From the NCBI GenBank assembly GCA_005879795.1, contig VBKJ01000103.1:1-42059 (forward strand): DNA of 42,059 nucleotides, read 5' to 3'. How positions within the stretch are numbered: position 1 is the first letter of the stretch; each line of letters starts with the position of its first letter. A program made the translations under genes and the position numbers. The stretch is from Deltaproteobacteria bacterium (GTDB lineage Bacteria > Desulfobacterota > Binatia > DP-6). Under the pieces are notes generated by a model. The model had not been told where the DNA came from. It did no database searches and saw only the letters and a program-made list of their open reading frames with translations. Of the stretch, positions 24,961 to 28,098 are shown piece by piece.

Positions 24961-25086
24961 GCGTCGGGCGGTGGCGGCTAGGTCCTGCGCAAGAAGGCGT
25001 CGCGAACCCCGTCAGGTCCGGAAGGAAGCAGCGGTACCGAATGTCCTCCTGTGCCGCAGGGCGCCCTAGCCGTTACCGCCGGACGC
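24961..25086 (+). ncRNA. ffs: signal recognition particle RNA (4.5S type)
   Basis: The RNA component of the signal recognition particle, which with Ffh targets membrane proteins. The conserved tip is unmistakable: GTCAGGTCCGGAAGGAAGCA at 25011-25030, with GCGGTA directly after it. The two ends pair over a long distance, GCGTC...GGCGGCTAGG at the 5' side with CCTAGCCGTTACCGCC...GACGC at the 3' side, giving a single long hairpin of about 126 bases, without an Alu domain. Exact ends are estimated from the pairing. Placement directly before dnaX is common in bacteria. Confidence 0.93.
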
Positions 25087-27031: not shown

Positions 27032-27628
27032 GTGGCCCAGCCGCCCTCCATGACGCGCCTGATCGAGCAGCTCATGCGGCTGCCGGGGATCGGCGAGAAG
27101 ACGGCGGCCCGGCTCGCGTTCCACATCCTGCGCGCCGACCGGCCGTACGCGCGGGCGCTCGCCGAGGCCGTGCTGGCGGTCAAGGAGGAGACCCGCCTCT
27201 GCTCGGTCTGCTTCGCACTCACCGAAGCGGATCCGTGCCCGATCTGTACCGATCCGGCGCGCCTTCCCGACGCGATCTGCGTCGTGGAGGAGCCGGCCGA
27301 CCTGCTCGCCGTCGAGCGCGCGCGAGAGTTTCGCGGCCGCTATCACGTGCTGCACGGCACGCTCGCGCCGCTCGACGGCGTGGGGCCCGACGAGCTCAAG
27401 ATCGAGCCGCTCCTGGCTCGCCTTCGCGCCGGCGCGGTGCGCGAGGTGATCGTCGCCACCAACCCCACGACCGAGGGCGAGGCGACGGCGCTCTACCTTG
27501 CCCGGCTGATCAAGCCTCTCGGCATCCGCGTGACCCGCATCGCGCATGGCATTCCGGTCGGGGGCGACCTCGAGTACGCCGACGTGGTCACGGTCGGCCG
27601 CGCCCTCGAGGGCCGCCGGGAGATGTAG
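27032..27628 (+). CDS. recR: recombination mediator protein RecR
   Basis: The 198-residue protein works with RecF/RecO in loading RecA at gaps. Domains in order: the helix-hairpin-helix [20 protein letters not shown], the four-Cys zinc finger (CSVC...CPIC with [16 protein letters not shown]), and the Toprim domain with [19 protein letters not shown] and [15 protein letters not shown]. The start is GTG 27032, three bases after the ybaB stop. Length matches the family (about 198-200). Confidence 0.97.
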
Positions 27629-27739: not shown

Positions 27740-27769
27740 TTGCGCACCCCCGGCGCTTTCGCCTATAAG
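27740..27769 (+). promoter_or_regulatory. candidate promoter of the split tRNA-Asn gene
   Basis: TTGCGC (27740-27745) and TATAAG (27764-27769) are 18 bases apart, nine bases before the first base of the tRNA. The good -10 hexamer stands out in this GC-rich region. Confidence 0.5.
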
Positions 27770-27777
27770 CTCGTCGT

Positions 27778-28098
27778 TCCCCGGTAGCTCAGTAGGTAGA
27801 GCGATCGGCTGTGGCCATGACGCAGCCTCACCGGGAAACCGGTGAGTGAAAAGCGGGTGAATTCAGGGAAGCCTAAGTGCAGGGTCGGGGCATATGGTAA
27901 CCCTGAGCCGAGCCCTCCGAGAACGCAGGGCGGAGGGAAGGTGCAGAGACTAGGGAGTGACGGAAGGATAATCTCCCCACGAGCGCCCGCCGCCTACAGG
28001 CCGTCCGGCCCACGGCGATGAGATAGTCCACCCCCGTCGGAAACGGCGGGACCGGTGTAACCGATTGGTCGCTGGTTCGAGTCCGGCCCGGGGAGCCA
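27778..28098 (+). tRNA. tRNA-Asn(GUU) interrupted by a group I intron in the anticodon
   Basis: Exon 1 is 27778-27812 and exon 2 is 28058-28098; joined they give a 76-base tRNA with every canonical arm. The acceptor pairs TCCCCGG with CCGGGGA (discriminator G, CCA encoded at 28096-28098); the D arm is GCTC-AGTAGGTA-GAGC; the anticodon stem is ATCGG/CCGAT with loop CTGTTAA, hence anticodon GTT; the variable loop is TGGTC; the T arm is GCTGG-TTCGAGT-CCGGC. The intron falls between anticodon bases 35 and 36. Without splicing the tRNA cannot work, and if no second tRNA-Asn gene exists the intron's self-splicing is essential. The gene follows recR by about 150 bases. Confidence 0.93.
27813..28057 (+). 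ncRNA. group I self-splicing intron (Azoarcus-like, IC3-type)
   Basis: A 245-base intron without an ORF. P1: exon GGCTGT (27807-27812) with GCAGCC (27822-27827), giving the required U-G pair at the 5' splice site; the last intron base is G (28057). P2: TCACCGG/CCGGTGA closed by GAAA (27828-27845). P3: GCGGGTG (27853-27859) with CGCCCGC (27984-27990). P4: TCAGGG (27863-27868) with CCCTGA (27901-27906). P5 and P5a: GCC/GGT and GTGC/GCAT. P6a: CCCTCCG/CGGAGGG (27913-27937). P7: GACTA (27948-27952) with TAGTC (28024-28028), inside the conserved GTGCAGAGACTA and GATAGTCC elements. P8: 27991-28017. P9: CCCGTCG-GAAA-CGGCGGG (28033-28050). The core closely resembles the Azoarcus tRNA-Ile intron as I remember it. 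Confidence 0.93.

Follow-up and report, generated by a model that had tools for sequence, protein, structure and literature searches.

A group I intron in the anticodon of a bacterial tRNA-Asn(GUU) gene, at a probable homing site

The stretch of DNA analysed here (42,059 nt; the window) carries a tRNA-Asn(GUU) gene that is interrupted within its anticodon. We are highly confident, from the sequences taken together, that a group I intron, very probably self-splicing, splits this gene between U35 and U36, at what is probably a homing site; the copy in the window is read as a passenger there. The few bacterial tRNA genes known to carry introns thereby gain a further host tRNA and a further insertion point within the anticodon. 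The surprise is the spread of such introns and the endonuclease that part of them share rather than the window's own copy.

The split gene and its intron

The earlier note had placed a split tRNA-Asn(GUU) gene at positions 27778 to 28098, with the insertion between anticodon bases 35 and 36, and these points held: the coordinates were correct on direct reading of the sequence (Table 1), ARAGORN called the joined exons as a tRNA-Asn(gtt) of 76 bases, and among 4,000 trial excisions (40 start positions combined with lengths of 200 to 299 nt) that of 27813 to 28057 alone restored the anticodon arm (CGGCTGTTAACCG), which sets the insertion point between U35 and U36. After this excision ARAGORN found a cloverleaf with a GUU anticodon; the CCA end is encoded, as it is in only part of the relatives. 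The tRNA, described earlier as perfect, was nearly so, with weak pairs flagged by ARAGORN in the T arm (one) and at the top of the anticodon stem (one). No tRNA was called by ARAGORN at default settings in the unspliced gene (27778 to 28098), and with its intron option the program misread the gene as tRNA-Thr(tgt). Because split genes escape ARAGORN, genomes that carry them may look devoid of tRNA-Asn.

Table 1. Coordinates of the split tRNA-Asn(GUU) gene, its intron and upstream features in the window
Feature	Position	Strand	Remarks
recR	27032-27628	+	Pfam; upstream neighbour of the split tRNA-Asn gene
Possible -10 box, TATAAG	27764-27769	+	8 nt before tRNA-Asn
5' exon, tRNA-Asn(GUU)	27778-27812	+	Ends at anticodon base U35; ARAGORN, joined exons
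Group I intron, 245 nt	27813-28057	+	Final base is the terminal G; RF00028, 68.4 bits; unique excision
3' exon, tRNA-Asn(GUU)	28058-28098	+	Starts with U36; CCA at 28096-28098
P1	27807-27827	+	Exon strand 27807-27812 (GGCUGU) with guide strand 27822-27827 (GCAGCC); U-G at splice site; 9-nt loop
P2	27828-27845	+	GAAA loop; both-side changes in 7/7 pairs
P3	27853-27859 / 27984-27990	+	100% of cells paired; 2/7 pairs change on both sides, 5 invariant
P4	27863-27868 / 27901-27906	+	99.2% of cells paired; encloses P5
P5	27872-27873 / 27896-27897	+	100% of cells paired; inside P4
P6	27907-27908 / 27941-27942	+	
P6a	27913-27918 / 27932-27937	+	Both-side changes in 6/6 pairs
P7	27948-27952 / 28024-28028	+	Guanosine-binding helix by homology; invariant in 22/22 introns
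J7/3 hairpin	27953-27957 / 27973-27977	+	Span 27953-27977
P8	27991-27994 / 28014-28017	+	100% of cells paired; 2/4 pairs change on both sides
P9	28033-28050	+	GAAA loop; both-side changes in 7/7 pairs

The genes upstream in the window were dnaX, ybaB and recR by Pfam. A small SRP RNA lies at 24976 to 25074, flanked by tRNA-Ser(GGA) and dnaX, as is usual in bacteria. A consensus promoter scan upstream of the split gene returned no promoter, and a loose TATA-like pattern was found 8 to 27 nt upstream of 10 of the 11 split loci in the window's own family (f1, seven genomes) and family f7, in a scan run without a control.

The earlier identification of the insert as a group I intron was supported by the Rfam covariance model RF00028, which matched positions 27803 to 28050 over its whole length (model positions 1 to 253) with 68.4 bits against a gathering threshold of 50 (E = 2.1e-15); this was the only match reported in the 4.1-Mb assembly. 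The helices listed in the earlier note (P1, P2, P3, P4, P5, P6a, P7, P8 and P9) were all present, and the U-G pair at the splice site and the terminal G could both be read directly in the window. An extra hairpin between P7 and P3 (J7/3) was missing from that list. No P10 was seen by eye in the window's intron.

The structure was written from the window sequence and counted on 22 aligned introns, comprising 12 RF00028 matches in tRNA-Asn genes (families f1, f7 and f5), three further loci of the class and seven from named records. These were 22 of the 25 short introns with a single J7/3 hairpin; L071, L086 and L124 were left out. Of 1,249 cells, 97.0% were paired (84.0% in shuffles), both-side changes occurred in 33 of 57 pairs (16.9 in shuffles), and the covariation score was 0.403 (0.143 in shuffles); none of 500 shuffles reached the observed value on any of the structure measures, and sliding the partners by 1 to 3 columns left only 35 to 48% paired. 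Rows that are kin may exceed shuffles without any structure, and a structure derived from a single row favours itself; despite both caveats, the gap to the shuffles is large. In the core helices P3, P4, P6, P7 and P8, 97.7 to 100% of cells were paired. In P2, P6a, P9 and the J7/3 hairpin no pair lacks a both-side change, and each of the five J7/3 pairs shows one in at least one row. Of the J7/3 cells 80% were paired, the 3' strand of this hairpin being displaced by the alignment in some rows. The U-G pair of P1 was kept in 22 of 22 introns, the outermost pair failed in 3 of 22, and five of the six P1 pairs were invariant, so that no covariation evidence comes from these five or from P7, the catalytic centre. 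Simple pseudoknot-free folding of the locus bettered the shuffles only modestly (z score of -2.25, with 3 of 100 shuffles equally good). Three f7 introns (L041, L042 and L045) have an insertion of about 60 nt in the P5 region.

In the precursor RNA, P1 would pair U35 with a guide-strand G. As in the group I family generally, free guanosine bound by P7 would attack after U35, and U35 would then attack behind the intron's last G; U35 and U36 would thereby be ligated and the GUU anticodon, unreadable before splicing, restored. The intron very probably removes itself. The tRNA introns of archaea and eukaryotes are removed by a tRNA endonuclease and a ligase, and such proteins might be supposed to excise the present insert in place of its own catalysis; the full group I core with its covariation and the bacterial nature of the host, whose 16S sequence matches the bacterial model, make this highly improbable.

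Split and intact tRNA-Asn genes in the class of the window

RF00028 matched 16 places in 15 of the 58 class genomes searched, the window's own genome (G000) included, with 14 genomes above the cut-off. Thirteen of the 16 places were split tRNA-Asn genes by script. By eye, other introns of the class lie in tRNA-Leu(UAA)-like genes (L043 and L044) and in a tRNA-Ile-like gene (L046).

In a pattern scan of 148 class genomes, 19 had a split tRNA-Asn gene (five of seven in f1, all six in f7, four of 16 in f5 and four of 25 in f2), 111 had an intact one and 19 had neither. G000 was the only genome with both. The split and intact patterns thus almost exclude each other in the class (Fisher's exact test, P = 4.7e-12, with genomes that are not independent). 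No further tRNA-Asn was seen in 18 of the 19 genomes with the split pattern, as judged by an intact pattern of incomplete sensitivity, which was missing in 19 of 129 non-split genomes (10 of these 19 being <90% complete). Of 395 genomes sampled from the window's own phylum, five had the split pattern, two of them outside the class. Two split-gene pattern matches lie 2.4 kb apart on one contig (G044:C32:69127-69185 and 71542-71600; L234 and L237). Because most intron-bearing relatives had no other tRNA-Asn gene that we could see, splicing is probably essential there for the reading of AAU and AAC; where no other such gene exists, every Asn codon would hang on the activity of a ribozyme.

An assembly chimaera or sequencing artefact might be suspected in a draft assembly of 280 contigs. 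The same tRNA carries the intron behind recR in four other f1 genomes, and it carries it in six f7 genomes; as the relatives agree, the artefact is ruled out, and we assign it a negligible probability.

The earlier note had counted against its reading RNA-seq with only unspliced transcripts alongside a second, uninterrupted tRNA-Asn gene. The gene, which is half of that combination, is present in the assembly, on another contig (C5:7045-7117, GUU anticodon), and, if real and expressed, it would make splicing non-essential in this particular genome. It also opens the reading that the split gene has become a pseudogene in decay, its intron perhaps no longer splicing, with the C5 tRNA-Asn reading the Asn codons; tetranucleotides do not separate C5 from the rest of the assembly (r = 0.86 against the pooled contigs; 0.81 to 0.89 for pieces of the window). 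Against this, C5 is a contig of 7.2 kb with a GC content of 66% (72% in the window), the contamination estimate of the assembly is 3.9%, and the integrase and a 490-aa protein of C5 had only weak partial matches (25 to 41% identity) in four of 18 other genomes tested, the 490-aa protein in three and the integrase in one. The C5 tRNA-Asn differs by eye from the other class tRNA-Asn stretches matched, and its four plasmid matches are from Actinomycetota (84 to 86% identity over 56 to 62 nt). The split gene has an undamaged intron core and undamaged tRNA ends, and of the six other f1 members four retain the intron and yielded no intact copy; the remaining two (80 and 82% complete) showed neither pattern. 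Decay of the split gene is therefore unlikely, and a gene that is still spliced is the preferred reading. C5 may be either a misbinned contig or a mobile island. On the same contig, a tyrosine recombinase frame shares its terminal part with the 3' half of the intact tRNA-Asn(GUU) (L047, 5797-7117), an arrangement suggestive of an integrase next to the tRNA that it targets or, again, of a misbinned contig.

Upstream sequence of at least 700 nt was available for 78 of the 88 split loci reconstructed here and below from the matches listed. recR was matched in 15 of the 88, at 43 to 152 nt from the tRNA in 13: every locus of f1 (five) and of f5 (four), L039 alone among the six of f7 and, outside these families, L103 (Rokuibacteriota), L077 (Omnitrophota) and L105. 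It was more distant in L040 (f7; 1.3 kb) and in L110 (Omnitrophota; 2.0 kb). In five of the six f7 loci and in three f2 loci recR is not adjacent to the split gene, so that a single common locus is not established class-wide.

A core tree was built from 54 of the 88 introns after the J7/3 stretch had been cut out; the other 34 were dropped because the script missed their core motif. The 11 f1 and f7 introns formed one set (SH-aLRT 99) and the four f5 introns another (support 98). Introns of f5, f2, Nitrospirota and Rokuibacteriota fell together with most of those having two J7/3 hairpins or none (support 90, not starred). Deep branches were weak and long rows were present, and only the f1-f7 and f5 sets were used; they weakly suggest at least two introductions of the intron into the class.

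Spread beyond the class and endonucleases in the P1 loop

The earlier note had implied that an intron in tRNA-Asn is a rarity, a view that did not stand. At least 88 homologous genes split at 35/36 were reconstructed, 18 in the class and at least 70 in named records from many phyla; in these relatives G|TAA at the end served as search key and the script demanded TGT ahead of the insert, so that the ends are not independent tests. A scan of the GTDB genome collection for the split-gene pattern gave at least 118 stretches, and 70 of the 80 listed yielded a complete split tRNA-Asn. Among the first 96 loci, 13 lacked a full split tRNA-Asn: three of the class, judged by eye to be two tRNA-Leu-like genes and a tRNA-Ile-like gene, and 10 named loci, in which no 5' exon was found or the tRNA was a different one. 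Seven later class loci gave five more. Many Patescibacteria lineages were represented among the matches listed, together with Omnitrophota (at least six), Elusimicrobiota (at least four), Nitrospirota (at least three), Cyanobacteriota (at least two) and Planctomycetota, Ignavibacteriota, Rokuibacteriota, Aminicenantes and a deltaproteobacterium (at least one each). Archaea were represented among them by at least two Pacearchaeota (L056 and L060). Single metagenome contigs among the named records may be misbinned. An intact tRNA-Asn pattern was also present in four of 50 split-gene genomes examined out of the 70 named among the matches listed. In phage and plasmid records no relative of the intron was visible to the search; matches in two phage and five plasmid records covered the 3' part of the tRNA only (query positions 281 to 321).

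The 88 introns from the matches listed ranged from 179 to 1,858 nt, with a median of about 262 nt. The longest is that of a Nitrospira tRNA-Asn gene (L080), in which the longest frame has 201 aa and is not HNH. By the stretch between P7 and P3, three architectures were distinguished, with one hairpin (A), two (B) or none (C). Regular expressions assigned 36 of the 88 to A, 30 to B and 21 to C, and left one unsure; by eye, L095 was moved from A to C, and L099 and L114 were regarded as unsure (the letter of L114 was kept, and L099 was marked "B?"). The window's intron and all 18 tRNA-Asn introns of the class belong to architecture A.

By a scripted test, an HNH frame was present in the P1 loop of 18 of these 88 introns, L038, L219, L064 and L123 among them (two frames, in L114 and L228, are broken), and remnants were seen in three more (L060, L073 and L090). 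In the introns inspected the frame starts just past the 5' splice junction and extends as far as the guide strand of P1 or into it. The 18 proteins have about 95 aa and share 42 to 77% pairwise identity. Two that were tried matched phrog_2255 and phrog_3106 (E = 1e-19 to 1e-29, with 5e-29 for one protein and 1e-29 for the other), profiles of phage HNH endonucleases, which the shorter intron proteins cover only in part; Pfam HNH stayed below its cut-off for all three proteins tried. HNH frames occur with architectures A, B and C, and one identity across architectures is 71% (L095 against L119), compared with at most 77% within A.

Since relatives carry HNH frames in introns at 35/36, this position of tRNA-Asn is probably a homing target, at which the relatives' endonuclease would presumably cut intron-free tRNA-Asn genes. 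Six open reading frames of at least 20 aa overlap the window's intron, none of them HNH-like by eye, and an HNH query gave no match in the seven f1 genomes, a set without a positive control. We read the window's copy as a putative fixed passenger. The presence of one HNH family with three ribozyme architectures at one place suggests that endonuclease and ribozyme may have been re-paired. The wider proposal, to which we give an even chance, is that 35/36 is one homing site common to bacteria and DPANN archaea, where a single family of HNH proteins of about 95 residues would have served all three architectures by such re-pairing, and that several lineages would have lost the endonuclease, leaving the intron as the sole obligatory route to tRNA-Asn.

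Family f5 offers a natural test bed for homing. recR lies upstream of intact tRNA-Asn in five of 30 intact class loci, all of them in f5 (L172 to L176), and these look like empty sites at what is seemingly the same locus as the split genes. Behind recR, the f5 locus is found empty, with an endonuclease-bearing intron or with an endonuclease-free one.

Relation to known introns

In bacteria, the group I introns of tRNA-Leu(UAA), tRNA-Ile(CAU), tRNA-Arg(CCU) and tRNA-fMet are small, lie in the anticodon loop, pair U with G at the 5' splice site and end in a G. The tRNA-Asn introns resemble them in all these respects and differ in the host tRNA, tRNA-Asn(GUU), in the site, 35/36, and, in two of the three architectures, in one or more J7/3 hairpins. 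The usual subgroup of bacterial tRNA introns is IC3, whose core is not known to have extra hairpins between P7 and P3; in subgroup IA, P7.1 and P7.2 occupy this stretch. The window's intron was not filed as IC3 because of its extra J7/3 hairpin. Compared with the IA pattern, it has one hairpin between P7 and P3, and architecture B has two. In the tRNA-Leu-like and tRNA-Ile-like introns of the class the J7/3 hairpin was absent by eye.

The full-text literature searched, outside which preprints and most subscription papers lie, held no mention of a group I intron in a bacterial tRNA-Asn in the text consulted. The tRNAscan-SE 2.0 paper mentions, in the part consulted, group I introns of tRNA-fMet and tRNA-Ile2 (PMC8450103); "Asn" is absent from the text seen of a 2014 review (PMC3984707), and the examined text of a 2025 intron database does not mention such an intron in bacteria (PMC11835236). 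In the sections consulted, a survey of chloroplast anticodons counts tRNA-Asn with those tRNAs that lack group I introns (PMC9840617), and a survey of cyanobacterial tRNAs gives introns only in tRNA-Arg, tRNA-Gly and tRNA-Lys besides the known ones of tRNA-Leu and tRNA-fMet (PMC5733544). A preprint by Nakagawa et al. (2025) reportedly describes tRNA group I introns at a new site in Patescibacteria, a group in which we found many tRNA-Asn introns; the site may be tRNA-Asn 35/36, in part of its range.

A parallel in spread comes from tmRNA, another tRNA-like gene, whose group I introns, in the part of the report consulted, occur in 21 phyla and mostly lack an endonuclease (LAGLIDADG genes in 23 of 844 founding introns; an endonuclease in 36 of 883 overall; PMC11915505). 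Those introns interrupt the T-loop, whereas the endonuclease frames of the tRNA-Asn introns are HNH and lie in the P1 loop. The archaeal group I introns of an earlier survey were all in rRNA genes (39 of 39, in the text consulted; PMC6125680); their hosts, of the DPANN type, resemble the Pacearchaeota found here (L056 and L060), in which the intron lies in tRNA-Asn.
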